Shown here piece by piece: positions 11,946 through 43,432 of a stretch of DNA of 54,032 bases (position 1 is its first letter; every line of letters begins with the position of its first letter). The notes below the pieces were generated by a model. It made no database searches and had not been told where the DNA came from. It worked only from the letters and a program-made list of their open reading frames with translations. This stretch comes from a bacterium BMS3Abin02 (GTDB lineage Bacteria > Actinomycetota > Acidimicrobiia > Spongiisociales > UBA4744): assembly GCA_002897675.1 (NCBI GenBank), contig BDSU01000028.1, positions 1-54,032 on the forward strand, read 5' to 3'. The translations under genes were made by a program, and so were the position numbers.

Positions 11946-12000
11946 TTGACAAGGGCCGAGCCCGCTCGTTATGATACTACCGACCGGTCAGTCGGTCGGT
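11946..12000 (+). promoter_or_regulatory. Promoter and TetR operator for the tetR-bcr operon
   Basis: TTGACA (11946-11951), an 18-base spacer and TATGAT (11970-11975) form a near-consensus promoter. Just downstream, 11979-12000 is a near-perfect palindrome with outer arms ACCGACCG and CGGTCGGT around a six-base centre, covering the likely transcription start. The adjacent TetR starts 7 bases later, so autorepression of tetR and the bcr genes is the simplest reading. Confidence 0.75.
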
Positions 12001-12006
12001 GGAGAT

Positions 12007-13802: not shown

Positions 13803-13829
13803 AGGAGCGCATCATTCCAGGAGGTGGAC

Positions 13830-15134: not shown

Positions 15135-15144
15135 GGTGATCGCA

Positions 15145-15963
15145 GTGGCATACGCAGCCGGAGTCGATGTCGGTTCGACCCAGACCAAAGCCGTCATCAT
15201 CGACGAGGATGGCAAGATCGCCGGCCGCTCTCTCATCGACACGGGAGCCAACGTCGTCAAGGCCGCCGAGTCGTCCTTCATCGCCGCCCTCGAGGCGGGA
15301 AACATCAGCGAGGAGGAGATCAACTACGTTGTCGGTACCGGATACGGCCGCTACCGGGTGACCTTCGGCAACACCCAGGTCACCGAGATCAGCTGTCACG
15401 GCAGGGGTGCGGTCCACCTGTTCCCCAACACGAGGACGGTCGTCGACATGGGTGGCCAGGACACCAAGGCGATCGCCGTCAACGCCATCGGCGAGATCAC
15501 CGACTTCTGCATGAACGACAAGTGTGCTGCCGGGACGGGACGCTTCCTCCAGGCCGCCGCAACGGCTCTCGACATCCCCCTCGACGATCTCGGCCCCCTC
15601 TCGCTCCAGAGCAGGAAGTCCGTCAAGATCAGTACGACCTGCACCGTCTTCGCAGAATCCGAGGTACTGGCGTGGATCGGCAAGGGCAAGAAGATCGAGG
15701 ACATCCTCTGGGGTGTCCACAAGTCCATTGCCGCTCGTTCGGCGAGCCTGATGCGCCGGGTCGGCATCAACGACGAGATCACCTTCACCGGTGGCGTATC
15801 CCGGAACGACGGCATGGTCAAAGCGCTCTCGGAGCGCCTGGGAAAGCCCCTGAACGTCAGCGCCGACTGTCACTACATCGGGGCGCTGGGAGCCGCCCTG
15901 TTCGCTCTCGACCACGTCATGGCCGGTCGTGCGCCGGTCGCCGGCACGGAGGTGGCATCGTGA
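15145..15963 (+). CDS. Benzoyl-CoA reductase activase ATPase subunit (BzdP/BcrA-like)
   Basis: 272 aa. ASKHA-fold ATPase of the BadF/BcrA/HgdC family: phosphate loop [12 protein letters not shown], second nucleotide motif [12 protein letters not shown], and cluster ligands Cys 127 (NDKCAAGTG) and Cys 166 ([11 protein letters not shown]), the same positions I recall for the HgdC activator. It drives low-potential electrons to BcrBC using ATP. It is short like BzdP/BzdQ rather than the ~440-aa BcrA of Thauera. GTG 15145 was chosen for its upstream GAGGTGA; an upstream TTG is possible. Confidence 0.88.
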
Positions 15964-16793
15964 TCTACACCGCAGGGTTGGACGTAGGGTCCACCTACAC
16001 GAAGGCTCTCATCCAGTCGGACGACGAGGAGATCGTCGGCAAGGCGTTCGGGCCGACCGGCTTTCGGCTCAAGGAGGTGGCGCGGACGATGTATGACCGG
16101 GCACTCGCGGACGCCGGCCTGAGTGAGGACGATATCTCCTATGTGATCGCCACCGGTGGCGGCCGCCACCATGTCGACTTCAAGGATCTCCATGTGACGG
16201 ACCTCACCGCAAGCGCCCGCGGGGCCTGTTTCCTGTTCCCGGGCACCCGCACCATCCTCGACGTGGGCGGCCAGACCATGAAGGCGAGCCGGGTGGACGG
16301 GTCGGCGAACGTCCTCTCGTTCCGGCTCAACGACAAATGCGCCGCCGGCACCGGGGCCTTTCTGGAGAAGACGGCCCGCTACATGGGCTATGGCACCGAA
16401 GAGATCGGCGCGCTGATGTCGACCTCGAAGGAACCCGTTCCGATCTCGGGCGTGTGTGCAGTCTTTGCCGAGTCGGAAGTGATCAACCACCTCTCGCTGG
16501 GCACGCCGCCGGCGGACATCATGCAGGGCGCCATCGAGTCGCTCACCGGACGCTCGGTACAGCTGATGAGACGGGTGCGGGCGGAACCGGAGTTCACGCT
16601 CATCGGGGGAATCCTCCGGTTCGAGACCATGGGGAGATCCGTCAGCGAATCACTCGAAGCCGATGTGAACGTCCCCGACGGCGACATGGTGCAGTTCGTA
16701 TCGGCACTCGGCTGTGCCATCCTTGGTCGGCGCCGCCTGGAGAAGCTTCACGCAGGCGGTGGCGTGCCGGCCACGTCGGGGACGCCGAAGTGA
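15960..16793 (+). CDS. Benzoyl-CoA reductase activase ATPase subunit (BzdQ/BcrD-like)
   Basis: 277 aa, paralogous to the preceding gene: [24 protein letters not shown], Cys 127 (NDKCAAGTG) and Cys 166 ([12 protein letters not shown]). The two activases would form a heterodimer bridged by one [4Fe-4S] cluster with two Cys from each. The GTG overlaps the previous stop (GTGA). The assignment to BzdQ/BcrD rather than BzdP/BcrA rests only on gene order. Confidence 0.86.
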
Positions 16794-22134: not shown

Positions 22135-22650
22135 TCCAGTCCCTCCTTGAGTCTTCCGCAAGTTTTGCGCGGCAGTCTTTCTCGTTTCGAGCCGACCGAC
22201 TCGTCGATCCCACACATGCCCAGGATCCGATTGGGCGGATCAAGCGTCGGGATGCTCTTCTCTCGGACCCACGTACGGTGTACGGCTCGTCATCGTATCA
22301 GCCTGTCCAGTGCCATGCGGAGGGAACCATGATCTATTTCACCTCTCCGGCGTCCTCGTCCCGGGACCCGCAGGCACGTCGCCGTTGCCCGAATGGGCCG
22401 GGAACGCCGACCGGCACGCCGACTGAATCAGTCAACCATGATGCAAATACATCACTTCCAATCAACACCAATTAGGTCATGAGAACGCGCGCGAATAGGT
22501 GGGCCATCGGTTCCTCTTGCCGACCTATTTGCCTCGTTGTAGGTTGTGTGCACAGATGAATACATCGATGGCGGCGACGACAACGACCCGCTCCGCGCAA
22601 ACGAGCCGACCGGTTGGTAGCCTGGTCGCAAAGCTGACAGGAGGCTGACC
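22135..22650. promoter_or_regulatory. Divergent control region between livK and the aryl-CoA ligase
   Basis: No gene is supported in these 516 bp. Three palindromic sites are visible: GACTGAATCAGTC (22421-22433, perfect 6-bp arms), TGATGCAAATACATCA (22439-22454, one mismatch from perfect symmetry) and CCGACCGGTTGG (22606-22617). The second is nearly the same as the palindrome at 30055-30070. The third shares CCGACCGGT with the TetR operator at 11979. The ligase has ACAGGAGG eight bases before its GTG. Clear -35/-10 boxes were not identified. Confidence 0.55.
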
Positions 22651-29888: not shown

Positions 29889-30173
29889 AAGATCCTCCTT
29901 CACCGGTCGGATAGAGAGTATCGTACACCCTAACCGTCCAACCGTTCGGTCGACTAGATGGAGTGTCCACCGTACTTTATGCCTCCGTCAATGAGGCACT
30001 GGCTCTGTTTGCCTGATGTATTTGGCTCACATATCTCTTTGGCGAAGGGGGGAGTGATGCATTTGCATCAGGAGAATGACACAGTAGCCGGATTGCCACC
30101 CGGAGGACTCTCTGGGATTCTTGGTGTTGACCAACCGACCGGCCGGACGGTTGGATCGGCCCAAGGAGGCACC
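29889..30173. promoter_or_regulatory. Divergent control region with three palindromic sites
   Basis: This 285-bp gap drives the DUF35 operon leftward and the LeuA-like/oxidoreductase operon rightward. Sites: ACCGTTCGGT (29941-29950); TGATGCATTTGCATCA (30055-30070, perfect 7-bp arms); and a 24-bp near-perfect palindrome at 30131-30154 with arms CCAACCG and CGGTTGG around a CCGGCCGG core. The last lies 20 bases before the GTG of the LeuA-like gene, next to its AAGGAGG. A TACGAT on the minus strand (29925-29920) is a possible -10 for DUF35. Confidence 0.6.
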
Positions 30174-31427
30174 GTGGCACTGGGAGAGACGACTGGCACC
30201 ATGGAAGAAGAGTATCTCTACGACTGGAACGTGATCGGAGAGGGTGAGATCGCCCGACCCGCCGCCGTGGAGGTGAACGACGAGACCTTGCGTGACGGCC
30301 TGCAGAGCCCCTCGGTGCGTCAACCCGATCTGAGCGAGAAGGTCGAGATTCTCCACCGGATGGAGGCGCTCGGCATCCACGCGGCCGACATCGGGTATCC
30401 GGGCGCCGGCCCGGGAATGCTCGATCATGTCGTCGCCCTCGCGAAGGAGATTGCCGCAGAGGACCTCGAGATCAAGCCGAATTGCGCCGGCCGCACGCAT
30501 GTCTCCGACATCCTGCCCATCAGTGAGGCGCAGCAACGCTCCGGCGTCGCGATCGAGGCCGCGGTGTTTCTCGGATCCAGTCCCATACGCCAGTTCGTGG
30601 AGGGCTGGGACGCGGACTTCCTGGTCCGTACGACGGAGAAGGCGGTCACGTTCGCCCGCAACGAGGGTCTCGAGGTCATGTACGTGACCGAGGACACCAC
30701 CCGGGCCCGGGCCGACGTCCTCCGGAGGGTGTACACCGCCGCCATCGAGGCCGGGGCGCGCCGCATCTGCCTCGCAGACACCGTGGGTCACGCCACGCCC
30801 TGGGGGGTCCGGGTGCTCGTGAGCTTCGTCCGCCAGATCGTGGCCGACAGCGGCGAAGAGGTGAAGATCGACTGGCACGGTCATCGCGATCGAAACCTCA
30901 GTGTGTTCAACTCGCTGGTCGCCCTCTCGGCGGGTGCGGATCGGGTCCACGCGTGCGGCCTCGGCCTCGGCGAGCGGGTGGGGAACACGCCGATGGAGGC
31001 GCTTCTGGTGAACCTCAAGCTTCTCGGCTGGCTCGATGCCGACTTGCACGGACTGCCGGCCTATTGCGATGCGATCTCGGAGGCGACCGACACACCGGTG
31101 CCGAACAACTGCCCCGCCGTCGGCAAGGATGCCTTCGAGACGAGCACGGGAGTGCATGCCGCGGCCGTGCTCAAGGCGTTGCGCACCGGTGACACATGGT
31201 TCGCCAACCGCATCTACAGCGGGGTCCCTGCAGACGAGCTGGGCCGTGAGCAGGTGATCACCGTTGGACCGATGAGTGGGAAGGCCAACGCGGTGGCCTG
31301 GCTGACCAAGCGTGGCCACCCGTGCGACGAGGCGACGGTCGACAAGGTCCTGTCCGCGGCCAAGTCGTCCGACCACGTTCTTCGCGAGGACGAGATCCTC
31401 CGGCTCCTGAGCACGGAGCACACATAG
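30174..31427 (+). CDS. LeuA/homocitrate-synthase-like Claisen condensing enzyme
   Basis: 417 aa. DRE-TIM metallolyase: NDETLRDGLQSPSV (metal-binding Asp, the usual DGxQ), DWHGHRDRNLSVFNSLVALSAG (metal His pair) and GLGERVGNTPMEALLVNL. There is a shortened C-terminal region and no LeuA regulatory domain, so feedback by leucine is not expected. Members join acetyl-CoA to a 2-oxoacid (isopropylmalate, citramalate, homocitrate or Re-citrate synthase). The substrate cannot be chosen from sequence. GTG 30174 has a perfect AAGGAGG; earlier in-frame Met codons run through the operators. Confidence 0.82.
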   Translation: MALGETTGTMEEEYLYDWNVIGEGEIARPAAVEVNDETLRDGLQSPSVRQPDLSEKVEILHRMEALGIHAADIGYPGAGPGMLDHVVALAKEIAAEDLEIKPNCAGRTHVSDILPISEAQQRSGVAIEAAVFLGSSPIRQFVEGWDADFLVRTTEKAVTFARNEGLEVMYVTEDTTRARADVLRRVYTAAIEAGARRICLADTVGHATPWGVRVLVSFVRQIVADSGEEVKIDWHGHRDRNLSVFNSLVALSAGADRVHACGLGLGERVGNTPMEALLVNLKLLGWLDADLHGLPAYCDAISEATDTPVPNNCPAVGKDAFETSTGVHAAAVLKALRTGDTWFANRIYSGVPADELGREQVITVGPMSGKANAVAWLTKRGHPCDEATVDKVLSAAKSSDHVLREDEILRLLSTEHT

Positions 31428-33235
31428 TGACTACCGACACCGTGCCGGGCTCGGCCGTCGAATCCAGGGTGCTGCTGTCCGGCAACGAGGCCGTCGGCCA
31501 GGGAGCAGTCGAGGCAGGGGTCCTGCTTGCGGTCGGCTATCCGGGAACACCGAGCACCGAGATCCTGGAGTCCATCGCACATCGCGACGACATCGACGTC
31601 CGCTGGTCGCCGAATGAGAAGGTGGCGCTCGATGTGGCCCTCGGGGCGTCACTCGGTGGCGTCAGGGTGCTGGCGACGATGAAGCATGTCGGCCTCAATG
31701 TCGCCGCCGACACGTTCATGACCGCGGCATACACCGGTGTCGGTGCCGGTCTCGTGATCGTGAGTGCCGACGATCCCGGCATGCACAGCTCTCAGAACGA
31801 GCAGGACAACAGGGCGTACGCTCGGATGGCGGGCGTCCCGCTCCTCGAGCCGAGTGACAGCGCCGAGGCCAAGGAGTACACCGCGATCGCCTTCGAGATC
31901 TCGGAGGAGTTCGACACGCCGGTTCTGCTGCGCACGACGACTCGTGTGTCGCACAACAGGGGAGTGGTCGAGGTTGGAGAGCGCGTCGAGAGGCCGTCGA
32001 CGGGGTTCACTCGCGATCCCGGCAAGTACGTCATGCTTCCCGGGAACGCCCGCGGCCGGCGTCGCGTGCTCCTCGAGCGCCTCGAGCGCCTCACCGCGTA
32101 CGTCGAGGCGAGTCCGTTGACCGTCGAATTCGGGGATGGCGCCGACTTCGGAGTCGTGACCTCGGGCATCGCCCACCACTACGTGCGCGAAGTCCTCCCC
32201 GATGCCCGGATCCTCAAACTGGGCATGAGCTATCCCCTTCCCATGGGGCGGATCCGAGCATTCTCCGAGTCGGTCGACCGGCTCTTCGTGGTCGAGGAAC
32301 TCGACCCGCACGTCGAAGACGCCATCCGGGCCGCCGGTATCGCGGTCGAGGGCAAGGCCTTCTTCCCCCAGATCGGAGAGCTGAGCCCCGACGTGGTCCG
32401 CCGCGGTTTCGCCGCCGCCGGGATCCTTCCCGCGACGGCCGACGTCGTCCCGGCCCCTCCGACGGTCGTCCGGCCGCCACTGATGTGCCCCGGATGTCCT
32501 CACACGGCACCGTTCCTCGCCCTGAAACGGATCGGGGCGGTCGTCGCAGGCGACATCGGCTGTTACACGCTTGCCGCGTTGGAGCCGCTGGCGGCAATGG
32601 ACACATGTGTGGCGATGGGGAGCAGCATCGGCATGGCGGTGGGGTTGGCCGCATCCGGAGGAGCCGGTGGGCCGGTGGTCGCCGCCATCGGCGACGGCAC
32701 GTTCTTGCACAGCGGGATCCCGGGGCTCGCCGAGGCCGTATACAACCAGGCCAACATCACCGTGCTCATCCTCGACAACGGGACCGTCGCCATGACCGGC
32801 GGCCAGGAGCATCCCGGTACCGGGGTGACGCTGCAGGGCTCGGACACGACTCCGGTGGACCTGATCGGGTTGTGTACGGCGCTGGGTGTCCGGGACGTGA
32901 GAGTCGTCGACCCGTACGACGTGGCGGCCACCTACAACGCACTCGAAGGTGCCATCGCCCATGTCGGACCTTCTGTGGTGATCACCAACCGTCCCTGTGT
33001 CGTAGCGCCCGTGAAGATCAAGGACAGGCCGTACCAGGTCGTTTCCGAAGCCTGCACCGCTTGCCAGGCCTGCATGACCCTCGGGTGCCCGTCGATCGTC
33101 TGGTCCGACGAGACGTACGAAGGAAGGCGCAAGGTCGTCGTCGACCTGGACACCTGCACGGGCTGCACGTTGTGTGCCCAGCTCTGCCCGCCCCACGCCC
33201 TCGTGCCGGTTCCCGTGGGGGCCCCCGATGCCTGA
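31427..33235 (+). CDS. iorA: Indolepyruvate-type 2-oxoacid:ferredoxin oxidoreductase, alpha subunit
   Basis: 602 aa, IorA length. An N-terminal pyrimidine-type domain (GNEAVGQGAVEAG, VGYPGTPSTEI) leads to a ThDP-binding domain with MCPGCPHTAPF and IGDGTFLHSGIPGLAEAVYN. The C-terminus carries two ferredoxin-type sites, CTACQACMTLGC and CTGCTLCAQLC. It oxidises an arylpyruvate or related 2-oxoacid to acyl-CoA and reduces ferredoxin. In this setting reduced ferredoxin would feed benzoyl-CoA reductase. The GTG overlaps the preceding stop by one base. Confidence 0.9.
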   Translation: MTTDTVPGSAVESRVLLSGNEAVGQGAVEAGVLLAVGYPGTPSTEILESIAHRDDIDVRWSPNEKVALDVALGASLGGVRVLATMKHVGLNVAADTFMTAAYTGVGAGLVIVSADDPGMHSSQNEQDNRAYARMAGVPLLEPSDSAEAKEYTAIAFEISEEFDTPVLLRTTTRVSHNRGVVEVGERVERPSTGFTRDPGKYVMLPGNARGRRRVLLERLERLTAYVEASPLTVEFGDGADFGVVTSGIAHHYVREVLPDARILKLGMSYPLPMGRIRAFSESVDRLFVVEELDPHVEDAIRAAGIAVEGKAFFPQIGELSPDVVRRGFAAAGILPATADVVPAPPTVVRPPLMCPGCPHTAPFLALKRIGAVVAGDIGCYTLAALEPLAAMDTCVAMGSSIGMAVGLAASGGAGGPVVAAIGDGTFLHSGIPGLAEAVYNQANITVLILDNGTVAMTGGQEHPGTGVTLQGSDTTPVDLIGLCTALGVRDVRVVDPYDVAATYNALEGAIAHVGPSVVITNRPCVVAPVKIKDRPYQVVSEACTACQACMTLGCPSIVWSDETYEGRRKVVVDLDTCTGCTLCAQLCPPHALVPVPVGAPDA

Positions 33236-34088
33236 GGGCTCGCACGGCCTGCTGCTGGCCGGAGTCGGTGGCCAGGGAGTGGTACTGGCCAGCATGATCG
33301 TCGCCGACGTTCTGCTTCGCGCCGGCTACGACGTCAAGCAGAGCGAGGTGCACGGGATGGCTCAACGGGGAGGCTCGGTGTCCAGCCACGTTCGCTGGGG
33401 GCCCAGAGTCGACAGTCCCATCGTCTCCCGGGGGAGCGCCGAGGTGCTGGTCGCGTTCGAGTGGGCCGAGGCGATTCGCTGGGTCGATTTCGTCCGAGAC
33501 GGAGGAGCGGTCGTCGCCGACATCCGCACGATCGTCCCCCCCGGTGCCTGCAGCGACAGACGGTCCTGGTCGGAACGGTATCCCGGCATCGATGCGGGGC
33601 TCTTCACCGGCCGTCACCTGAAAACCCGGCTGATCGATGCCGGTGCCGCGGCGACCGAGCTCGGCAACGTCCGAGCCGCGAACAGCGTCGTCCTCGGTTC
33701 GGTGGCGTCCTTCCTCGACATCGATCCTGTCCACTGGGAGGCGGCCATCGAACGGCTCGTGCCCCGGGGCACGGAGGAAGTGAACCTCGCTGCGTTCCGA
33801 GCGGGGCGTGAGATCGCGAGAGCCCCGGTGCCTCGCCGGGCACCGGACCCCGAGGGTTTCTCCGGACCGCACGAGATCGACATCCTCCACGACTGGTGCA
33901 AGGGCTGTGGTATCTGCTCCCGGGTCTGCCCCGGATACTGCCTGGCGGTGGACGTCGACGGGAAGCTGAACATCGTGGATGCGGAAGCGTGCACCGGCTG
34001 CAAGCTCTGTGAGCTGCTGTGCCCCGACTTCGCCATCAGGATCCATCCTCCCCTGACTCCGGCGGTGGTGGGGAGTCGCGATGAGTAG
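33228..34088 (+). CDS. iorB: IorB-type gamma subunit fused to a 2x[4Fe-4S] ferredoxin domain
   Basis: 286 aa. The first ~200 residues are a 2-oxoacid oxidoreductase gamma domain (LLLAGVGGQGVVLASMIVAD, HGMAQRGGSVSSHVRWG). The last ~60 residues add a bacterial ferredoxin with CKGCGICSRVCPGYC and CTGCKLCELLCPDF. Ordinary IorB lacks the ferredoxin part. It lies between iorA and korA, so the ferredoxin domain may serve as the missing delta subunit of the KorABC complex. Overlaps both neighbours by eight bases. Confidence 0.85.
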   Translation: MPEGSHGLLLAGVGGQGVVLASMIVADVLLRAGYDVKQSEVHGMAQRGGSVSSHVRWGPRVDSPIVSRGSAEVLVAFEWAEAIRWVDFVRDGGAVVADIRTIVPPGACSDRRSWSERYPGIDAGLFTGRHLKTRLIDAGAAATELGNVRAANSVVLGSVASFLDIDPVHWEAAIERLVPRGTEEVNLAAFRAGREIARAPVPRRAPDPEGFSGPHEIDILHDWCKGCGICSRVCPGYCLAVDVDGKLNIVDAEACTGCKLCELLCPDFAIRIHPPLTPAVVGSRDE

Positions 34089-35217
34089 AGCCGAACTGGT
34101 CCAAGGCAACGAAGCCTGTGCCCGGGGAGCACTTGCGGCCGGCTGCCGCTTCTTCGGTGGGTACCCGATCACTCCCTCGTCGGAGATCGCCGAGCACATG
34201 GTTCGGCGCCTGCCGGGGGTCGGCGGAGTGTTTGTGCAGATGGAGGACGAGATCGCGTCGCTCGCCGCCGTCATCGGCGCCTCCCTCGCCGGATCGAAGG
34301 CAATGACCGCCACCAGCGGACCGGGCTTCTCGCTGATGCAGGAGCACATCGGGTATGCCGCGATGGCCGAGGTCCCGTGCGTGATCATCGACGTCATGCG
34401 GGGAGGTCCCAGTACCGGGCTTCCGACATCGCCGTCTCAAGGCGACGTGATGCAGGCGCGCTGGGGAACCCACGGTGACCATCCCGCGATCGTTCTCGCT
34501 CCTTCGTCCGTGGGAGAGGTGTTCGATCTCACCATCCGGGCCTTCAATCTGGCGGAACGCTTCTGCACCCCGGTCATCGTCATCTACGACGCGGTCATCG
34601 GCCACACGCGGGAGAGCGTCGTTCTGTCGGAGCCCGAACAGATCGAGAACCGGTTGCGTCCCGACGGCAGTGCCGATACCTCCTGGCCCAGGGCGACGCC
34701 GGTCGACGGTGTTCCCCCTCTGCCCGCCTTCGGGGACGGCTACCGGTTCCACGTGACCGGGCTGACCCACGACGAACGCGGCTTCCCGACCACGAATGCC
34801 AAACTGGCCGAGGCGTTCATCACGCGGATCCATGCCAAGGTCGAAGCCCATGCCGAGGACATCATCCAGGTGGAGCGTTACCTGCTCGACGACGCCGACA
34901 TCGCCATCTTCGCCTACGGGATCGTGGGTCGATCGGCACGTGAGGCGGTGGATCGGGCTCGCGCCGCCGGTGTCAAAGCCGGTCTGATCCGGCCCCTGAC
35001 CCTGTGGCCGTTCCCGCACGCGCAGGTCATCGAGGCCGCAAAGCAGGTCGACCGCCTCATCGTGGCCGAAATGAACCTGGGACAGCTCATCGGTGAGGTC
35101 GAGCGATCTGCTGCGGGACAGGTCGAGATCGTCGGGCACCTGCGAGCCGACGGTGAGCCGATCACCCCCACCGATCTCTTCGACGTGCTCACGTCCGGTG
35201 GCGGAGGGCGGCCATGA
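34081..35217 (+). CDS. korA: 2-oxoacid:ferredoxin oxidoreductase, alpha subunit (KorA type)
   Basis: 378 aa. LVQGNEACARGALAAGCRFFGGYPITPSSEIAE is the KorA/VorB opening; SGPGFSLMQEHIGYAAMAEVPCVIIDVMRGGPSTGLPT is the classical core. It has no gamma domain fused, so it pairs with separate korB and korC. Substrate may be 2-oxoglutarate, as in Thauera where KGOR regenerates reduced ferredoxin for benzoyl-CoA reductase, but phenylglyoxylate or another 2-oxoacid is possible. Confidence 0.88.
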   Translation: MSRAELVQGNEACARGALAAGCRFFGGYPITPSSEIAEHMVRRLPGVGGVFVQMEDEIASLAAVIGASLAGSKAMTATSGPGFSLMQEHIGYAAMAEVPCVIIDVMRGGPSTGLPTSPSQGDVMQARWGTHGDHPAIVLAPSSVGEVFDLTIRAFNLAERFCTPVIVIYDAVIGHTRESVVLSEPEQIENRLRPDGSADTSWPRATPVDGVPPLPAFGDGYRFHVTGLTHDERGFPTTNAKLAEAFITRIHAKVEAHAEDIIQVERYLLDDADIAIFAYGIVGRSAREAVDRARAAGVKAGLIRPLTLWPFPHAQVIEAAKQVDRLIVAEMNLGQLIGEVERSAAGQVEIVGHLRADGEPITPTDLFDVLTSGGGGRP

Positions 35218-36038
35218 GCGCCGTCGACACCTACCTTCGCGAATGGGCAATGCCCCATATCCTCTGTCCCGGCTGTGCCCACGGCATCGTGCTCAAGGCC
35301 TTCCTGGAAGCCGTCGACGAGCTACGGATCGACCAGGACAAGCTGGCGATGGTGGCCGGGATCGGCTGCAGCGGCCGGTTGGTGGGCTACGTGGATTCCT
35401 GCACCCTGCACGGAACCCACGGCCGGGCTCCCGCCTTCGCGACCGGGCTCAAGCTCGCTCGCCCCGAGCTGAACGTGGTCGTGATCACCGGGGACGGAGA
35501 TGGTCTCGCCATCGGCGGCAATCACCTGATCCATGCGGCCCGCAGGAACATCGACATCACCGTGCTCTTGCTCAACAATGCGACCTACGGGATGACCGGA
35601 GGTCAGGTCGCTCCCACCACTCCGGGAGGTGCCGTGACGTCGACGACCCCGGAAGGGAACACCGAGCCGGACTTCGATGCCTGCAAACTACTCATCGGAG
35701 CCGGAGCCTCCTTTGTGGCTCGCGTTCTCGCCGCGAACCCCCTCGAGATGACGAAAGTCATGGCAGACGGCATGAGCCATCGAGGCTTCTCGTTCATCGA
35801 AGTGATCAGCGACTGTCCTGCGATCTACGGGCGGTACAACAAGCTCGGCGACGGCGCGGAGATGCTGGCCTGGATGGCGCGCTGTGACGACAGCGTCTCC
35901 GGTCCGTTGTTCTCCAAGAAGTTCGTGAACCACGTGCCCTCCTCGGTGGCGCCACCCGGGTTGGCGACCGGCGTCCTCCAGAGGGACGTGAAGCCGGTGT
36001 TCGCCGGAGTCCGAAAGGTCGAAGACGATGAGTCGTAG
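35214..36038 (+). CDS. korB: 2-oxoacid:ferredoxin oxidoreductase, beta subunit (KorB type)
   Basis: 274 aa. ThDP-binding beta subunit: GDGDGLAIGGNHLIHAARRN for Mg/ThDP, NNATYGMTGGQ, and proximal [4Fe-4S] ligand candidates in LCPGCAHG, GIGCSGRL and ISDCPAIYG. It holds the active-site cofactor and first electron acceptor. ATGA overlap with korA and an 11-base overlap with korC indicate equal expression of the complex. Confidence 0.9.
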   Translation: MSAVDTYLREWAMPHILCPGCAHGIVLKAFLEAVDELRIDQDKLAMVAGIGCSGRLVGYVDSCTLHGTHGRAPAFATGLKLARPELNVVVITGDGDGLAIGGNHLIHAARRNIDITVLLLNNATYGMTGGQVAPTTPGGAVTSTTPEGNTEPDFDACKLLIGAGASFVARVLAANPLEMTKVMADGMSHRGFSFIEVISDCPAIYGRYNKLGDGAEMLAWMARCDDSVSGPLFSKKFVNHVPSSVAPPGLATGVLQRDVKPVFAGVRKVEDDES

Positions 36039-36558
36039 CGAGATCCGGATCGCGGGCGCCGGTGGCCAGGGCGTTGTCACGGCCGGCCGGATCCTTGCCG
36101 AAGCCGCGATCCTGTCCGGCAGCAACGCCACCCACAGCCAGGTCTACGGGCCCCAGTCTCGTGGTGGCGCCAGCCGCTCCGACGTCGTGATCGCAACGGG
36201 GGAGATCGGCTTCCCGCTGGCGGACGACATCGACGTCTTGGTGGTCCTGAGTGCCGAGGCGTACGCCCGGTACCAGCCCGAGCTGGGAGAGCACGGCCGC
36301 CTGGTCGTCGACGGGCGCTGCGCCCCCGATTCGGTCGATGTCGACCGGTTTCCGGTCGTCGACACGGCGCGTGCGATCTCGGGCGGCCAGCTCGTCACCG
36401 GCGTGGTGGCCCTGGGGTTGCTGCAGGCCCTCACCGGAGTGGTCGACACGGATGCCCTTCGCCGGGCGGTCGCGGCCAGAGTTCCCACCCTGCACCGGAA
36501 GATGAACCTGGATGCCCTGAGCGCCGGGATGGCTCTGGTCGGTGGGGGGACGGCATGA
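36028..36558 (+). CDS. korC: 2-oxoacid:ferredoxin oxidoreductase, gamma subunit (KorC type)
   Basis: 176 aa. IRIAGAGGQGVVTAGRILAEAA and HSQVYGPQSRGGASRSDVVIA are the gamma-subunit CoA-region motifs. It is similar in fold to the IorB N-terminal domain but carries no ferredoxin extension. It completes a KorABC set lacking a separate delta ferredoxin gene. Overlaps the following tetR by four bases. Confidence 0.88.
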   Translation: MSRSEIRIAGAGGQGVVTAGRILAEAAILSGSNATHSQVYGPQSRGGASRSDVVIATGEIGFPLADDIDVLVVLSAEAYARYQPELGEHGRLVVDGRCAPDSVDVDRFPVVDTARAISGGQLVTGVVALGLLQALTGVVDTDALRRAVAARVPTLHRKMNLDALSAGMALVGGGTA

Positions 36559-37166
36559 CGGACGAATTCACGACGAGGGAGCGCATCCGTCGGGAAGCCG
36601 CGGCGCTCTTCCGCAAGAAAGGATTCAACGGGACGAGCATGGCCGAGCTCGCCGAGCACGTGGGCATCACCAAGTCGAGTCTCTACCACCATTTCCCGAG
36701 CAAGCAGGCCCTGCTGTCGGAGATCATCGAGCTGACGGTGAATCGGGTGACGCCGCTCCTGCAAGAGGTGGCGGACTCCGATCTGCCGATCCGTGAGCGG
36801 CTGGGCAGGGCGGTGGTCCTCCATACCGTGGAGGCGATACGCGATCGGGACGCCGTCGCCTGCTTCGTCGAGGAGGGCCGATACCTGGCTCCCGACCTCA
36901 TGGCTGCCCACGTGGCAAGGAGGGACCGCTACGAGGCCATCTTCCGGCGAATGCTCGAGGAAGGTATCGCGTCGGGCGAGTTCGTGGATCAGGATGTTGC
37001 CCTCTCCGTAAGGGCCATCCTCGGGACGTGCAACTCGGTGGTGCGTTGGTACCGGTCGGACGGAGACCACACCCCCGAGGAGATCGCGTCGCAGTTCGCC
37101 CACTTCACGGTGCGCGGTGCAAGTGGCGCGAAAGGTGTGTATTCCGTCCTGGGAAGTGACAGGTGA
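36555..37166 (+). CDS. TetR-family regulator, second in the island
   Basis: 203 aa. The N-terminal domain RIRREAAALFRKKGFNGTSM, AELAEHVGITKSSLYHHFPS and KQALLSEII is a clear TetR helix-turn-helix. It is embedded mid-operon between korC and the CoA-transferase with ATGA and GTGA overlaps, so it is co-transcribed with its probable targets. It may act at the CCAACCG-type palindrome at 30131-30154 or at the other ACCG-containing sites; that is inference. Confidence 0.87.
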   Translation: MTDEFTTRERIRREAAALFRKKGFNGTSMAELAEHVGITKSSLYHHFPSKQALLSEIIELTVNRVTPLLQEVADSDLPIRERLGRAVVLHTVEAIRDRDAVACFVEEGRYLAPDLMAAHVARRDRYEAIFRRMLEEGIASGEFVDQDVALSVRAILGTCNSVVRWYRSDGDHTPEEIASQFAHFTVRGASGAKGVYSVLGSDR

Positions 37167-38386
37167 GCGGGGCACTCGAAGGCGTCACCGTGCTCGACCT
37201 CTCCCAGGGGGCGGCCGGACCCACCTGCGCCATGTACCTCGGCGACCTGGGCGCCGACATCCTCAAGGTGGAGCCCCCCGGTGGGGAGTGGGGGCGGAGG
37301 TTGGGCCCTCCTTTCGTCGGGGGCGTCGCGGCGGCATTCCTGGGGATGAACCGCAACAAGCGGAGCGTCGTGGTCGATCTCAAGAAGCCGGGAGGATCCG
37401 AAGTCGTCCTGAGGCTGGCCGAGCACTCCGACGTGGCCCTCGAGAGCTTCCGGCCAGGGGTCGCCGAACGTCTCGGCATCGGCTACGAAACCATGGCGAA
37501 GCGCAACCCCCGGCTGATCTACGCGGCAATCTCCGCCTTCGGCCGGTCCGGGCCGTGGCGTGACCGTCCCGGCGTCGACGGTGTCGCCCAGGCCATGGGG
37601 GGAATCATGAGTGTCACCGGAACGGCCGACGGCCCACCGGTCAAGGTGGGGGTCCCGGCCGCCGACATGGCCGGGGGCATGTATACGTCGCAGGCCATCA
37701 TCGCGGCCCTCTTCGCCAGGGAGCGGACGGGCCGCGGCCAGCGGGTCGACGTATCCCTGCTCGATTCGCTTCTCGCCTACCAGGTCGTGCCGCTCTCGAT
37801 GTTCCTCGCAAGCGGAGAATCGCCCCGACGCCTGGGAAGCGCAGCCCCCTATGCGGCTCCGAACGAGGCATTCGCGACCAGCGACGGTCATGTGATGGTT
37901 GCCGCCTACACCCCCAAACGGTGGCCGGCGCTCTGCCGCGTCTTGGGCAAGCCGGAACTGGCGACCGATCCGCGCTTCGACACCAACGAGAAGCGAGTCC
38001 GCGGCCGACCTGCGCTGCGAGAGGTCCTGGAACCGTTGTTTCGTGCCAGAACGACGGCGGAGTGGATCGAGGTGCTCGACGAGGCCGACATCCTCTGTGG
38101 ACCGCTGCTGACGTACTCCGAATTGGTCGCAGAGGAACACGTCGTCAAAGGGGATGCGATCGTGACCGTCACGCATCCTGCGATCGGCGAGGTCAGCTCG
38201 CCGGTGTTCCCGGGCCGCTTCTCGGAGACGCGCGGCGACGTCACCGGACCGCCGCCGCCACTGCCCGGTGAGCACTCGGAAGCGATCCTGGGGGAGTGCG
38301 GTTTCGGCGAGGACGAGATCCGTGAGCTGCTTCGCATCGGTATCGTGAGTGGCGTCCAGGACGAACCCGAAAGGAGTACCCAGTGA
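37163..38386 (+). CDS. Class III (CaiB/Frc family) CoA-transferase
   Basis: 407 aa. Family marks are the N-terminal [20 protein letters not shown] and [40 protein letters not shown] with the probable catalytic Asp, and [15 protein letters not shown]. It moves CoA from one acyl-CoA to a carboxylic acid without ATP. In this operon it could activate an aromatic or dicarboxylic acid using succinyl-CoA or glutaryl-CoA; the acceptor is unknown. Confidence 0.88.
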
Positions 38387-39195
38387 CGGATGAGCAAGCC
38401 GCCAACGGCGAAGAAACCCCTGTGCTGTATGAGCGCGTCGGAGCGGTAGGGGTACTGACCCTGAACCGACCCCATGCCCTCAACTCGATGACCGTCGCGA
38501 TGCTGGAGGAGATGGCCCGCATTCTCGACGAGATCGAGGCCGACCCGGACACCCGGGTTCTCGTCGTGACCGGATCGGGTGAGAAAGCATTCTGCGTGGG
38601 AGCCGACCTGAAGAGCCGGGGCAAGAAGTTCGAGGCGGGTTTGATCCACGACCCGCTCGGTCTGCTCGTACGCAGCGTCTTCGGTCGTCTCGAGAACCTG
38701 CACATGCCGGTCATCATGGCGATCCGCGGCTACGCCTTGGGAGGCGGTCTGGAGCTGGCTCTGGCCGGTGACCTTCGAGTGGCGGCGGAGGGAGCCCGAC
38801 TGGGCTTTCCCGAGGCCAAGGTCGGGAGTCTGCCGGGAGCCGGCGGGACCCAGCGGGCCACACGTCTGATCGGACCCGGTTTCACGAAGGAGCTGATGTT
38901 CACCGCCGACCATATCGGTGCCGAGGATGCGTTGCGCATGGGCCTGGTCAACCGCGTGGTGCCCGATGACGACCTGATGGAGGAGACGATGGCGCTGGCT
39001 CGGCGCATCGCCGGCCGTGCCCCGCTGTCCCATGATCGGGTCAAGGTGCTGGTGAACCGGGCCACCGAGACCGACCTCGAAACCGGCCTGGAGCTCGAGT
39101 CGACGAGTCACGCCGTGCTGCGTGCCAGCGAAGATCGAAACGAGGGGATCCAAGCCTTCATCGACAAGCGGCCCCCGAAATTCAAGGGACGATGA
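38383..39195 (+). CDS. Enoyl-CoA hydratase/isomerase family protein
   Basis: 270 aa crotonase: [14 protein letters not shown] and [17 protein letters not shown] form the oxyanion hole with one Glu, and [17 protein letters not shown] supplies the second catalytic Glu, so it should hydrate a 2-enoyl-CoA. It lacks the Dch SFGASVEEH motif. A role in side-chain beta-oxidation or on a pimeloyl-type intermediate is reasonable. GTG start with AAAGGAG seven bases before it. Confidence 0.87.
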
Positions 39196-39217
39196 GAGCA
39201 CGAAGGAGGTAACGAAC

Positions 39218-39964
39218 GTGAATGTGAAAGACCGAGTTGCCATTGTCACGGGTTCCGGCCAGGGGATCGGTGAGGGGATCGCCCGGGCACTGGCCGGAGC
39301 CGGCGCCAAGGTCGTCGTGAACGATCTCGTGCCCGAGAAGGTCGAAACGGTCGTCGCCGATCTCAAAGCCGCAGGCTTCGATGCCGTTGGTCACACCGCC
39401 AACGTGGCGACCGCCGAAGGAGCCGAAGGTCTGGTGGCCGCGGCGCTGGAAGCGTACGGCCGTGTCGACATCCTGGTGAACAACGTCGGGATCGCCCGAG
39501 ATGGCTGGCTGGCCAAGATGAGCGAGGAAGACTGGGACAGCGTCCTGCAGGTCAACCTCAAATCCCAGTTCCTGTGCTGTCGGGCCGTTGCGCCGCACAT
39601 GATGGCGCAGAAGTCGGGCCGGATCATCAACATCTCGTCGCGTGCCTGGCTGGGGGGACCGGGCCAGGCGAACTACGCGGCCTCCAAAGGCGCCGTGATC
39701 AGCCTGACCCGCACGCTGGCGCTCGAGATGGCCCGCTACGGGATCACCGCCAATTGCATCGCTCCGGCGCTCGTGGACACCCCGCTCTTTCGGGGGCTGA
39801 AGGAGGAGGTTCGGGAGCGGCTCGTCAAGACGATTCCGCTGCGTCGAGTCGGCACCCCGGCGGATATCGGCAACGCCGCGCTGTTCCTGGCGTCGGACGA
39901 GTCGTCCTACGTGACCGGCCAGACGCTGTACGTCTGCGGCGGCCGCAGCCTGGGGGCAGGTTGA
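39218..39964 (+). CDS. Short-chain dehydrogenase/reductase (FabG-like 3-hydroxyacyl-CoA dehydrogenase candidate)
   Basis: 248 aa classical SDR: TGSGQGIGEG cofactor loop, NNVG, catalytic Ser (ISSRAW) 13 residues before Tyr in YAASKGA, and the FabG-type ending DESSYVTGQTLYVCGG. ND at the end of beta-2 (VVVNDL) favours NAD over NADP. With the neighbouring hydratase it could oxidise 3-hydroxypimeloyl-CoA or another 3-hydroxyacyl-CoA. GTG 39218 has AAGGAGG upstream. Confidence 0.86.
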   Translation: MNVKDRVAIVTGSGQGIGEGIARALAGAGAKVVVNDLVPEKVETVVADLKAAGFDAVGHTANVATAEGAEGLVAAALEAYGRVDILVNNVGIARDGWLAKMSEEDWDSVLQVNLKSQFLCCRAVAPHMMAQKSGRIINISSRAWLGGPGQANYAASKGAVISLTRTLALEMARYGITANCIAPALVDTPLFRGLKEEVRERLVKTIPLRRVGTPADIGNAALFLASDESSYVTGQTLYVCGGRSLGAG

Positions 39965-39980
39965 GGGAGGTTCCGACACG

Positions 39981-41255
39981 ATGGGCATGACGCTGGCAGA
40001 GCGTATCCTGGCCAAGGCGGCAGGGCGGGAGCAGGTCACGGCGGGCGAGTTCGTCGTCGCCGACATCGACCTTGCCCTACTGCACGACATCTTCGCCGCC
40101 CAGGTGTTCGACCTGCTTCGAGATGTGGGGGTGGGCCGCCTCTTCGACCCGACCAGGACGGTGGTCGTGATCGACCACCTCGTTCCGGCGCCTTCGGTCG
40201 AGGCGGCGAGCGTTCACCAGAGGATCCGAGAACACGTATCCCGGCTCGGTATCACCACCTTCTACGACGCGGGCGAGGGTATCTGCCACCAGTTGCTCCC
40301 TGAGCGGGGCCATGTCCGGCCGGGGATGCTGATCGTGGGAACGGATTCGCACACGACGACGTACGGCGCGCTCGGTGCCGGCGGCACCGGAATCGGCACC
40401 TCGGAGATGGTCTACGCGCTGGCCACGGGGAGGCTCTGGTTCCGGGTGCCCGAGACCATCCGATTCGAGTTGACCGGTGACCTGCTGCCTGCGGTCTCGT
40501 GGAAGGACGTGATCTTGTACCTGGCCGGACGTTTCGGAGCCGACGCCGCCCAGTACCGCGCGATGGAGTTTGGTGGACCGGCCGCGGCGAACGCAGACAT
40601 GTCGAGCCGGCTCACGGTCTCCAACATGGCGGTCGAGATGGGAGCCAAGTTCGGCCTGTTCGCCGCCGACGAGGTCACCGACGCCTATCTGCGAGAGCAC
40701 GGAGGAACCGGCTCCGAGCCTTTCGAGCCGGACACCGACGCGAGCTACGAGGCCGTCCACGAGATATCGCTCTCGGATCTGCCTCCGCAGGTGGCGATGC
40801 CGAACGAGGTGGACCGGGTCGGCCCGGTGGCCGATGTCGAGGGTGTCACGATCGACCAGGCCTTCGTCGGATCCTGTACCAACGGGCGGATCGAGGACCT
40901 TCGAGCGGCGGCGGACGTGCTCGACGGGCGCCACATAGCCGCAGGAGTTCGTCTTCTCGTGGCCCCGGCCTCCCGGGCCGTCCTCCAGGAGGCCATGAGG
41001 ACGGGAGTGCTGGCCTCGCTCGTCGATGCGGGCGCCTCCGTGCTCGTACCCGGGTGCGGTCCCTGTTTCGGGGGTCACGGCGGGCTCCTCGGGCCGGGCG
41101 AACGCTGTATCGGCACCAGCAACCGCAACTTCATCGCACGGATGGGAAGCGCCCAGGCCGAGATCTACCTCGCTTCGCCTGCGACCGTGGCGGCGTCGGC
41201 GCTGGTCGGGCGCATCACCGATCCCCGGCACCTGGAGGCGACCGATGTCTCGTGA
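39981..41255 (+). CDS. Aconitase-superfamily large subunit (LeuC/homoaconitase/dimethylmaleate hydratase type)
   Basis: 424 aa, length of the two-subunit archaeal/bacterial LeuC type. It has GTDSHTTTYGALGAGGTGIG, then FVGSCTNGRIEDLRAAA and PGCGPCFGGHGG, which together give the three Cys of a [4Fe-4S] cluster. It hydrates and dehydrates a 2- or 3-hydroxy di- or tricarboxylic acid with its small partner. A housekeeping LeuC is less likely inside this catabolic run. Substrate could match the LeuA-like synthase product or a PrpF-family product. Confidence 0.86.
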   Translation: MGMTLAERILAKAAGREQVTAGEFVVADIDLALLHDIFAAQVFDLLRDVGVGRLFDPTRTVVVIDHLVPAPSVEAASVHQRIREHVSRLGITTFYDAGEGICHQLLPERGHVRPGMLIVGTDSHTTTYGALGAGGTGIGTSEMVYALATGRLWFRVPETIRFELTGDLLPAVSWKDVILYLAGRFGADAAQYRAMEFGGPAAANADMSSRLTVSNMAVEMGAKFGLFAADEVTDAYLREHGGTGSEPFEPDTDASYEAVHEISLSDLPPQVAMPNEVDRVGPVADVEGVTIDQAFVGSCTNGRIEDLRAAADVLDGRHIAAGVRLLVAPASRAVLQEAMRTGVLASLVDAGASVLVPGCGPCFGGHGGLLGPGERCIGTSNRNFIARMGSAQAEIYLASPATVAASALVGRITDPRHLEATDVS

Positions 41256-41745
41256 CCTGCTGCGAGGCCGCGTGTGGAAACTCGACCACAACGTCAGCAC
41301 GGATGTGCTGTCTCCCGGTGCGTACGCCGTCGACCCGGTCGAGGTCCGCAAGCTCCACGTTCTCGAATCGGTGAACCCGGCGTTTGCCTCCGAGGTGGAA
41401 CCCGGCGACGTCATCGTGGCCGGGCGCAACTTCGGGTGCGGGTCGAGTCGCGAGACGGCCGCGGAGAACCTGAAGGCGCTTGGCGTGGCCTGTGTCGTCG
41501 CCGAATCGCTCTCGCGGCTCTTCATGCGCAACGCGGTCGCCGTCGGGTTGCCGATACTCGTCTGCGCCGGCGTTCATGCGGCGTTTGCGGATGGGGACGT
41601 CATCGAAGTCGACCTCGCCTCGGGCCGGGTCCGCAACATCGCCGGCGGCTCCGAGCTGCAAGGCGACTCGTTGCCCGAGGAAATGCGGGAGATCCTCGCG
41701 GCCGGCGGGATTCTCGCCATGCTCAGGAAGCAGAGTGCCGTATGA
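41245..41745 (+). CDS. Aconitase-superfamily small subunit (LeuD type)
   Basis: 166 aa, LeuD-like swivel domain: NVSTDVLSPGAY at the N-terminus and GRNFGCGSSRETAAENLKALGVACVVAESL for substrate binding. The short bridging loop after the first motif, where specificity of LeuD versus homoaconitase versus dimethylmaleate hydratase is read, shows AVDPVEVRKLHV, which I cannot assign. Overlaps the large subunit by 11 bases. Confidence 0.87.
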   Translation: MSRDLLRGRVWKLDHNVSTDVLSPGAYAVDPVEVRKLHVLESVNPAFASEVEPGDVIVAGRNFGCGSSRETAAENLKALGVACVVAESLSRLFMRNAVAVGLPILVCAGVHAAFADGDVIEVDLASGRVRNIAGGSELQGDSLPEEMREILAAGGILAMLRKQSAV

Positions 41746-41822: not shown

Positions 41823-42488
41823 ATGAGCACCGTGACCGCGATCGATTCGAGCGTCGGAGGGGCGCTCGCCGAGCTGCTCGACATTCTCGGCAGGACCGCC
41901 GATGGCATGATCGCGATCGACGGGGAGTTCCGCATCATCGCCTGGAACGAGGCGGCTACCGAGCTCCTGGGCTACTCCCCGGCCGAAGCTCTGGGGAGAC
42001 CCTGCCACGAGATCCTCTGCTGGCGTGATCGACATGGAGACGCCGTATGCGACCTCTGCCCCGCGGCCGCCCCGGGTGAAGCCGACGAGATCATCGCAAC
42101 CCGGGAGGTGCTGGGCAGGTCCGCGGCCGGCAAGACGCTCTGGCTGAACGCATCCACCATCGTTCCCCCCGCCGGGCTTCGTGACCGGTGCCGGCTGGTG
42201 CACCTGATCAGAGAAGTCGCCCTTCCCCCCGAGCTGGAGAGGGTCGTCGTCGAGCGGTTGGGAGGTTGGAGCCTTGCCACCGCCGACGGTGTCGGGAATC
42301 TCGACGTGTTGACTTCCCGGGAGCGGGACGTGCTTCGCCTCCTGACCGAGGGACTCGACGGGGCCGCCATCGCCGAGCGGCTGTTCCTGTCGCCGGCGAC
42401 CGTCCGCAATCACATCCAGCACATTCTCACCAAGCTCGGTGTCCACAGCCGGGTCGAGGCCGTGGCGCTGGCTCTACGCCGTCGCTAG
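41823..42488 (+). CDS. PAS-LuxR regulator with Cys-rich sensor
   Basis: 221 aa. A PAS domain (residues ~15-120: LGRTADGMIAIDGEFRIIAW, NEAATELLGYSPAEALGRPC) contains C-x4-C-x9-C-x2-C in CHEILCWRDRHGDAVCDLCP, then a LuxR-type DNA-binding domain (LTSRERDVLRLLTEGL, IAERLFLSPATVRNHIQHIL). The four Cys could hold a metal or Fe-S cluster and sense oxygen or redox state. As last gene of the aromatic operon, it may tie expression to anoxia; that is inference. The stop overlaps that of hemerythrin. Confidence 0.83.
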   Translation: MSTVTAIDSSVGGALAELLDILGRTADGMIAIDGEFRIIAWNEAATELLGYSPAEALGRPCHEILCWRDRHGDAVCDLCPAAAPGEADEIIATREVLGRSAAGKTLWLNASTIVPPAGLRDRCRLVHLIREVALPPELERVVVERLGGWSLATADGVGNLDVLTSRERDVLRLLTEGLDGAAIAERLFLSPATVRNHIQHILTKLGVHSRVEAVALALRRR

Positions 42489-43063
42489 TGCCCTGGCCCG
42501 TGACGTTCGAGGATCTCTCCTGCGAGACGTTCGAGATCCTCCACGGTCCGGCCCTCGAATCGTCGTCGGCAGACCTCGTCGTATCTGGCACAGAGATCCT
42601 GGCAAGCCGACCCGACGATCCAGTCGTCGGCCATGTTGAAGAGGACGTTGTTCTCCTTGCCGATGTGGGCCACGATCAAGTTGGTGAAGCCCTCGGCCGC
42701 GCTCCTCAGAGCGGCGTTCGCCGTCTGGTCCTCACCACGGGCGTCCTCGAGCGATTCCGCCATGGCCCGCACCAGCGCTCGACCTTGCTCATGTTCATCG
42801 AGCATCACGGCGATCGGGCCGGCGTCCCGCGGTAGGCCGTTGGCCTCCAGCTCCGGAAACAGGTGGACCTCCTCTTTGCCGTGATGGCAGGCGTCCACGA
42901 AAAGGCGGAAGAACGTGACGCACCGGGCGACGGCGTCGTAGTCGAGGGGATCCCCGTCCTTCTCGGCTGCGAACATCCGCGCCAGCGCGTCGGCAACTTC
43001 GAGGATGAGTTTGTGCTCCTCCCGGAGCAGTGCGGTCGCTGTGGACGGGTGCTGGTCGGTCAT
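42485..43063 (-). CDS. Hemerythrin-domain protein
   Basis: 192 aa. A four-helix HHE domain with metal-ligand candidates in LREEHKLIL, CHHGKEEVHLFPEL, LDEHEQGRALV and HIGKENNVLF. The His/Glu/Asp pattern suits a di-iron oxygen- or NO-binding site. A C-terminal helical region of about 40 residues follows. It could scavenge oxygen near oxygen-sensitive enzymes, or be a stress protein. Convergent with PAS-LuxR; the start was placed at the ATG before MTDQHPST since upstream codons are translated repeat. Confidence 0.85.
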   Translation of the reverse strand: MTDQHPSTATALLREEHKLILEVADALARMFAAEKDGDPLDYDAVARCVTFFRLFVDACHHGKEEVHLFPELEANGLPRDAGPIAVMLDEHEQGRALVRAMAESLEDARGEDQTANAALRSAAEGFTNLIVAHIGKENNVLFNMADDWIVGSACQDLCARYDEVCRRRFEGRTVEDLERLAGEILERHGPGH

Positions 43064-43141
43064 GCCGGACCAACGTAGATGACGGTGTGTCGCAGTGCAA
43101 GATGGCCCGCGGCTGCGCCGGCCCACGAAGGCCGCCATCTC

Positions 43142-43432
43142 TTCCTTCCCCTGGCAGGGGAAGTACCCGAGCGCAGCGAGGGGGATGGGGTTTCTTTCCT
43201 TCCCCTCGCAGGGGAAGTGGCCTCGGGGCTTTGGCCGAGGCCGATGGGGTAGAGGATCTCCCCTCGCAGGGGAAGTACCCGAGCAAGAGTGACCCCACTT
43301 CTTCCTTCCCCTAGCAGGGGAAGTACCCGAGCGCAGCGAGGGGGATGGGGTAGAGCGCCTTCCTACCACCCCCATCGACCTCGGCTCGTTCCTCGCCTCG
43401 GCCACTTCCCCCCGAAGAGGGAAGCAAAGAGG
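43142..43432. repeat. Cluster of dispersed GC-rich hairpin repeats
   Basis: At least five units in a 375-bp gap, each with a hairpin such as TTCCCCTGGCAGGGGAA. Tails are either GTACCCGAGCGCAGCGAGG or the GTGGCCTCGGGGCTTTGGCC type seen at 226-337, usually ending GATGGGGT. An inverted unit lies near 43370-43430. They extend to the hemerythrin promoter side. No gene is supported here. Confidence 0.82.

Follow-up and report, generated by a model that had tools for sequence, protein, structure and literature searches.

The regulator encoded at positions 41823 to 42488 of the window (the whole stretch of 54,032 nucleotides analysed here) joins a PAS domain with an unvarying set of three cysteines and one histidine (Cys61, Cys76, Cys79 and His127, hereafter the Cys3His set) to a LuxR-type helix-turn-helix (HTH), and a 16-bp dyad recurs beside the genes of its relatives in other phyla. 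Our best reading of the whole, a regulator that would sense oxygen or redox state through an iron–sulfur cluster and act through this dyad, is given slightly less than an even chance (about 48%).

Domain architecture and fold of the regulator

The regulator gene and its two domains are placed as follows.

41823..42488, + strand: PAS–LuxR one-component regulator gene, 221 amino acids plus stop
41865..42227, + strand: PAS domain, about residues 15–135 (Pfam PAS_9/PAS_4, AlphaFold model and PAS structure matches)
42303..42473, + strand: LuxR/GerE HTH, residues 161–217 (PF00196, E 1.5e-20)

As the first-pass annotation had proposed, a PAS domain lies inside a LuxR regulator, both Pfam models being matched above their cut-offs: PAS_9 in the N terminus at 37.6 bits (cut-off 27) and the GerE/LuxR HTH, PF00196, in the C terminus at 73 bits (cut-off 23.5). 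The protein is a one-component transcription regulator, and PAS–LuxR regulators are a known kind. The AlphaFold model of the regulator has a mean pLDDT of 80.0 and a pTM of 0.56, with the Cys loop less sure (pLDDT 68 for residues 71–80 and 57 for residues 81–90). Foldseek gave EL222 and VqmA as the best matches, and VIA-align of the PAS part ranked a Shewanella sensory-box domain, FixL, DosP and EL222 highest. No PDB structure with the Cys trio was recognised among 60 of the 67 matches to the PAS profile; these matches mostly end at about the position of Cys61, with the LOV proteins and a few kinases extending further.

The presence of EL222, other LOV proteins, FixL and DosP among the top fold matches raises the question of a flavin (LOV-like) or heme PAS sensor. 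Cys61 lies in the sequence GRPC, at the position where LOV domains carry their reactive, photoactive cysteine. The LOV flavin motif around that cysteine is GxNCRFLQ, and it is absent here, where Cys61 is followed by HEILCWRDR; moreover, neither cofactor accounts for Cys76, Cys79 and His127 together. A flavin or heme sensor is for these reasons considered very improbable.

Conservation of cysteine and histidine residues

Relatives were gathered by a search of 59 related genomes and a scan of GTDB species genomes, the best 80 of 115 relatives from the scan being kept; the alignment of the set (A2) has 80 rows. Going by record titles, the close clade consists almost entirely of Acidimicrobiia or unclassified actinobacterial MAGs, and the distant relatives come from Nitrospirae, Proteobacteria, Methylomirabilota, Chloroflexi and Acidobacteria. 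Because the distant set was found via the HTH peptide TVRNH[IV]QH, its HTH conservation is by construction, which does not apply to the PAS domain; selection by best full-length score does favour relatives with similar PAS domains. The residues concerned are listed below.

42003..42005, + strand: Cys61 codon, invariant (80/80 aligned)
42018..42020, + strand: Cys66 codon, variable (15/25 clade, 7/53 distant, best 80 of 115)
42033..42035, + strand: His71 codon, Cys in 24/25 clade sequences
42048..42050, + strand: Cys76 codon, invariant (80/80 aligned)
42057..42059, + strand: Cys79 codon, invariant (80/80), with x2 spacing here and x3 in most
42201..42203, + strand: His127 codon, within the final strand of the PAS domain (DSSP E125–131), invariant (80/80)

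The only PAS residues invariant across the 80 rows, window included, are Trp41, Cys61, Cys76, Cys79 and His127. Counted separately, the Cys3His set is complete in 25/25 clade sequences (window included) and in 53/53 distant ones, the latter from the best 80 of 115 relatives. Around Cys61 the A2 consensus reads GRPCxEVL and the window protein GRPCHEIL. Spacing between Cys76 and Cys79 is x3 in nearly all relatives; the x2 form is common to the window, L050 and L034/L059. For these counts, seven partial or mis-framed loci (L034, L056, L059, L067, L068, L073 and L114) were excluded, as were six presumed duplicates apart from L029, which has no second copy; the clade of 25 includes the window and L029. 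The frame of L055 is altered after residue 128, and without this locus Cys66 is found in 14/24 clade sequences. In alignment A2, L067, L068 and L073 are present, their starts corrected, whereas L055, L034, L056, L059 and L114 are absent.

Cys61, Cys66, Cys76 and Cys79 do spell the C-x4-C-x9-C-x2-C motif that had been read in the PAS domain, and the motif is more than chance, three of its four cysteines being invariant in 80/80. As a four-Cys ligand set it was rejected because Cys66 varies, and the invariant His127 had been overlooked. Lack of Cys conservation in close homologues had been named as the observation that would count against the original proposal; Cys61, Cys76 and Cys79 are conserved, and only Cys66 behaves in that way.

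A probable shared site in other PAS domains

For a broader view of the site, a PAS-only profile (A3, 42 rows) was run on a phylum sample of 296 genomes, in most of which at most 14 candidates were scored; at least 175 of the genomes gave a match with an E value no higher than 1e-6. The domains read comprised 30 returned loci and 40 further matches, hand-picked for full coverage rather than drawn at random. Output types were assigned by simple motifs and an HTH profile, and a domain was termed trio-bearing when Cys61 was kept and at least three cysteines lay in the segment. In the 42 trio-bearing domains residue 127 is His in 16, Glu in 16, Ala in 5, Val in 2, and Asp, Cys and Ile in 1 each; in the 26 domains lacking the trio it is Cys in 11, His in 5, Ala in 4, Leu and Val in 2 each, and Thr and Gly in 1 each. 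The full set (Cys61, two more cysteines and His127) was present in 12/15 LuxR-type matches. The other three, L124, L138 and L156, have lost the cysteines and kept His127, so the Cys–His link is not absolute.

Glutamate occupies position 127 in 8/8 GGDEF-motif proteins whose match covers it. Proteins of this type at L130–L133, L137, L139, L148 and L149 were seen to carry the same Cys trio with Glu127 in a GAVEVFSD-like context. In one long-ORF family, Val, Ile or Ala at 61 is paired with Cys127 in 11 members and Cys61 with Ala127 in 5, and L168 has both cysteines; on the family tree this swap amounts to about one or two changes, within that one family only. Such an exchange fits a single shared site formed by residues 61 and 127 and two loop cysteines. 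Covariation and topology suggest that Cys61, Cys76, Cys79 and His127 lie together, and the site would presumably face the PAS cavity. It probably binds a metal of some kind, and the PAS–GGDEF type with the Cys trio and Glu127 may share the cofactor of the regulator.

Three cysteines and one histidine are a common ligand set for zinc. A zinc ion at the Cys3His site could fix the position of the long PAS loop, or zinc itself could be the signal, in either case with no redox chemistry. There is a documented precedent in S. aureus, where the output of WalK is controlled by zinc in its PAS domain, according to the accessible text of PMC6624279. WalK PAS chains match the PAS profile to position 58, just past Cys61. 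Against zinc stands residue 127, where many trio-bearing relatives have Glu and some have Ala or Cys. Variation of this kind would be unusual for a structural zinc site, and we regard zinc as an unlikely but not negligible occupant.

Operon and genome context

The gene closes a plus-strand operon that starts at an HMGL-like gene, and it runs towards a hemerythrin gene on the other strand, as had been noted; the two stops overlap (42486–42488 on the + strand and 42485–42487 on the − strand).

29958..41745, + strand: operon HMGL-IorA-IorB-KorA-KorB-KorG-TetR-CaiB-ECH-SDR-AcnL-AcnS, ended by the regulator (Pfam/NCBIfam, synteny)
36555..37166, + strand: TetR regulator of the same operon (PF00440/PF17932)
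42485..43063, − strand: convergent hemerythrin gene (PF01814)

The description of the surroundings as aromatic and oxygen-sensitive is sound, since benzoyl-CoA pathway-like genes occur in the window: BcrA/B/C/D-, 4-hydroxybenzoyl-CoA-reductase-alpha-, PaaK-, dch-, oah- and had-like genes, with class I benzoyl-CoA reductase-like genes at 12627–16790. Of these, oah and had score above the NCBIfam cut-offs set by curation, whereas the matches of BcrB, BcrC, the alpha subunit, PaaK and dch fall short of them, and the two BcrA/D-like genes pass a general activase domain model only. Near the left end of the window (4961–7757), SufD and SufC genes of Fe–S assembly were found above curated cut-offs.

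In 25/25 clade loci that reach that far, the regulator is directly preceded by AcnS in the same orientation, with gaps of 45–479 bp. Apart from the window, the divergent thiolase-PrpF/HMGL layout is kept in 9/10 loci reaching it, L191 being without a thiolase there, and G025 (L029) is without IorAB-KorABG between HMGL and TetR. Hemerythrin is found within 200 bp of the regulator in 6/23 relative loci with enough downstream sequence, the window aside. Beside the window's hemerythrin gene, several copies of a palindrome-like repeat, CCCCTCGCAGGGGAAGT and similar, were noted by eye at 43140–43420.

Across the order (138 genomes), a strong match to the regulator occurs in 19 genomes, oah in 15 and both in 11. 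The regulator is thus present in 11/15 oah genomes vs 8/123 others (Fisher p 1.4e-8, with genomes that are not independent). The 8 carriers lacking oah indicate that the regulator follows the HMGL-AcnLS operon, not ring reduction alone. Among the five genomes listed for the family (G000–G004), only that of the window (G000) has the regulator and oah, a pattern that points to acquisition of the cluster by horizontal transfer or to its loss in the others. The operon at 29958–41745, which may represent an unusual route for 2-oxoacids or glutaryl-CoA, joins a homocitrate/isopropylmalate-synthase-like gene (below cut-offs) to genes for IorAB, an oxidoreductase of KorABG type, a CoA transferase, ECH, SDR and a hydratase resembling LeuC/LeuD.

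A dyad recurring beside the regulator gene

The sites at 22439 and 30055 that the first-pass annotation had named for DNA binding turned out to be copies of a 16-bp dyad, TGATGC-N4-GCATCA, that recurs beside the regulator across phyla. The copies in the window and the elements around them are as follows.

30055..30070, no strand: candidate operator TGATGCATTTGCATCA, between the divergent promoters (region compared across 10 genomes)
22439..22454, no strand: second candidate operator TGATGCAAATACATCA, 1 mismatch, upstream of a PaaK-like CoA ligase gene
30093..30121, + strand: promoter-like boxes TTGnCA-N17-GAnYCT, 38 bp past the first base of the dyad
30133..30153, no strand: TetR-type repeat, candidate operator putatively assigned to the TetR at 36555
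29932..29952, no strand: second TetR-type repeat, on the thiolase side, 1 mismatch to the pattern and likewise putatively assigned

The dyad at 30055 lies between thiolase-PrpF-had-oah-dch on the − strand and the operon from HMGL to the regulator on the + strand. The distance of 38 bp from its first base to the −35-like box is constant in 6/10 genomes, and no such boxes were matched in the other 4; this spacing would put the centre of the dyad near −65. The six genomes are close relatives, so shared descent or general conservation may explain the constancy in part. The left arm is weak in 3/10 close genomes. Within the window, 2 sites were counted vs 0.08 expected, a number equalled in 1/100 shuffles. 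A further TetR-type repeat, with 2 mismatches, was seen at 11977–12001, where another ORF starts, ahead of the BcrC-like gene.

Having been derived from the window, the pattern was then examined in distant loci, in the 700 bp around the regulator gene. Covered were 55 of the 56 loci L058–L113 (L059, a clade member, was left out), L033 not being included. With expectations taken from the remaining sequence of the loci, exact dyads were found within 700 bp of the regulator in 14/55 distant loci vs 0.21 sites expected, and dyads with at most 1 mismatch in 28/55 vs 0.62 sites expected, the latter limit giving 0–3 of 55 loci for seven control palindromes. When 2 mismatches were allowed, 43/55 loci had a site vs 4.0 expected; one control palindrome then reached 19 loci (13.85 expected), for which reason the 1-mismatch limit was adopted. 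After clustering at 60% identity, the dyad was retained in 19/28 clusters and was exact in 11. It lies downstream of the regulator gene in 27/28 site-bearing loci. Since the genes that come after it differ between groups, the regulator is the common factor.

The dyad does not accompany every LuxR-type gene with the trio: no copy within 1 mismatch was present at 14 LuxR-type genes of other branches (L117–L124, L138, L156, L163, L172, L173 and L033). Nor is a global regulon marked by the dyad supported in this genome, where 6 sites (at most 1 mismatch) equal the 6 of the reversed control. Over the 138 genomes of the order, the association between exact dyad and regulator is weak (9/19 carriers, 16/119 others, p 0.0015). 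In one genome with no close orthologue of the regulator, an exact TGATGC-N4-GCATCA begins about 54 bp past the end of a LuxR-type match (G045:C67:44209-44484).

From its recurrence beside the regulator gene, to which the copies in the candidate pathway promoters at 30055 and 22439 are assigned on the same ground, TGATGC-N4-GCATCA is with high probability the operator of this PAS–LuxR branch.

Gene neighbourhoods of distant homologues

Names for the neighbours of the distant loci were obtained by scanning representatives with Pfam. In 19–21 distant loci the regulator is followed by a DsrE-like gene, a PMT_2 gene and one for sulfur transport. At L075, L090, L113 and others, PAS–LuxR, DsrE-like, PMT_2 and sulfur transporter genes form a cluster with the dyad between regulator and cluster; in some loci an FAD amine-oxidase-like or a radical-SAM/B12 gene then follows. 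Downstream of the regulator come genes resembling NuoE/NuoF and a molybdopterin oxidoreductase gene at L060, and the gene of an NAD(P)-dependent Fe–S flavoprotein at L070; at the Methylomirabilota locus L063 the regulator stands beside TetR-ECH-SDR. In Nitrospira defluvii (L089, 10901–14105), small secreted-looking proteins follow, several of them cupredoxin-like by eye; no Pfam match was obtained for these. Unrelated neighbours were also met, among them FtsQ/A/Z (L106), a dehydrogenase E1 (L109) and a saccharopine dehydrogenase (L033). An Fe–S theme appears in few neighbourhoods, and most others examined are not Fe–S or oxygen-labile.

The sulfur-related genes are the strongest point for a metal-free thiol switch, in which disulfides or persulfides of the cysteines would sense oxidants or sulfane sulfur and His127 would tune their reactivity. 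VqmA, a LuxR-family regulator, is moreover among the top fold matches. VqmA has a disulfide redox switch. A strict Cys trio together with His or Glu at 127 nevertheless exceeds the needs of a disulfide pair, and the predicted targets in the window are ferredoxin-dependent, Fe–S-type enzymes; we put such a switch level with zinc, as an improbable explanation that still deserves weight.

The diversity of neighbours also bears on the possibility that the PAS pocket accommodates a small molecule, for instance an aryl-CoA or an acid of the pathway, with the cysteines in a structural role. The link of the regulator to the pathway through oah (11/15 genomes vs 8/123 others) would suit it. The same Cys3His set, however, adjoins quite different genes, which makes a shared aromatic ligand unlikely, and the TetR of the operon would be the likelier metabolite sensor. 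Small-ligand binding is accordingly held to be distinctly improbable.

Proposed mechanism

In the iron–sulfur reading preferred here, the regulator would be specific for the oxygen-sensitive genes around it, and the PAS site formed by Cys61, Cys76, Cys79 and His127 would hold an oxygen- or redox-labile iron–sulfur cluster, His71 or Cys71 being a possible clade-specific extra. Whether the dimeric LuxR HTH occupies the 16-bp dyad would depend on the state of the site. The first predicted target is the divergent promoter region at 30055, serving the lower benzoyl-CoA genes and the HMGL-to-regulator operon, and the second is the CoA-ligase promoter at 22439. A dyad centre near −65 suggests activation, so that the bound regulator would activate while a TetR repressor would act at the adjacent repeats; the TetR of the operon may also control ring reduction. 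The metal, the type of cluster, the signal, binding as a dimer and activation are the parts of this scheme that we infer.

More tentatively, and with less confidence than in the window regulator itself, a family spanning phyla could be envisaged in which oxygen or redox state is sensed by a PAS Fe–S cluster held by three cysteines and an exchangeable fourth ligand. The latter would be His in LuxR types, Glu in GGDEF types and a relocated Cys elsewhere, and the TVRNH[IV]QH branch would read TGATGC-N4-GCATCA ahead of widely differing pathways, one of them the reduction of benzoyl-CoA in Acidimicrobiia.

Few bacterial sensors are as widespread as PAS domains, most of which have no known signal. 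The PAS subtype described here, in which the Cys3His set is invariant, can be tested at the bench, together with its relatives that have different outputs and the operator predicted for one LuxR branch. Were the iron–sulfur reading true, oxygen would be tied directly to transcription in the anaerobic breakdown of aromatics by uncultured Acidimicrobiia, and targets of the branch in Nitrospirota, Proteobacteria and Methylomirabilota could be predicted with the aid of the dyad.

Comparison with known systems

A literature search, mostly outside subscription papers, returned no description of a Cys3His PAS–LuxR type or of a TGATGC-N4-GCATCA operator. In the best Foldseek matches, EL222 (LOV–LuxR) and VqmA (LuxR family), a sensor domain is likewise followed by a LuxR HTH; the LOV flavin chemistry of EL222 and the DPO ligand of VqmA are unlike what is predicted for the window regulator. 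BzdR, MbdR and similar regulators of anaerobic benzoyl-CoA pathways are not known to be PAS–LuxR proteins. According to the accessible portions of the reports, these control benzoyl-CoA pathway genes and respond to benzoyl-CoA or 3-methylbenzoyl-CoA (PMC6678401, PMC4424350, PMC4985591). For UBA5794 actinobacteria, which we infer to belong to the same order as the window, benzoyl-CoA reductase and KOR genes and a potential for anaerobic aromatic metabolism are reported, with no mention of a regulator or operator in the accessible text (PMC12008989).

The PimM/PteF PAS–LuxR regulators of Streptomyces, as far as the available parts of the sources describe them, likewise have an N-terminal PAS domain and a C-terminal LuxR HTH and are mostly pathway-specific (PMC9774167, PMC9394381). 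Their operator is given as the 16-bp CTVGGGAWWTCCCBAG with an AWWT centre (PMC9774167). The dyad shares its length and A/T centre but has the half-site TGATGC, not CTVGGG. The window regulator differs further in its Cys3His site and its predicted catabolic targets, cysteine not being mentioned in the accessible text on PimM types (PMC9774167). FG214 is, as proposed for the window regulator, a one-component, redox-responsive PAS regulator with a LuxR-type HTH; it differs in that the HTH is N-terminal and a heme is bound by His, and the available text does not mention cysteine (PMC13060918). In WalK a metal in the PAS domain controls output, as far as its accessible account goes, but the site is at the surface and the protein is a histidine kinase (PMC6624279).

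A parallel in the proposed chemistry would be NreB of Staphylococcus carnosus, described in the material available as a PAS oxygen sensor whose [4Fe-4S] cluster is held by cysteines. NreB has a histidine kinase output and a different Cys spacing, and Fe–S PAS domains of its type have four conserved cysteines. The window regulator has three invariant cysteines and His127 instead, with Cys71 in 24/25 clade sequences and His in its place here. PAS–LuxR regulators, Fe–S PAS domains (NreB) and zinc PAS domains (WalK) are each known kinds.
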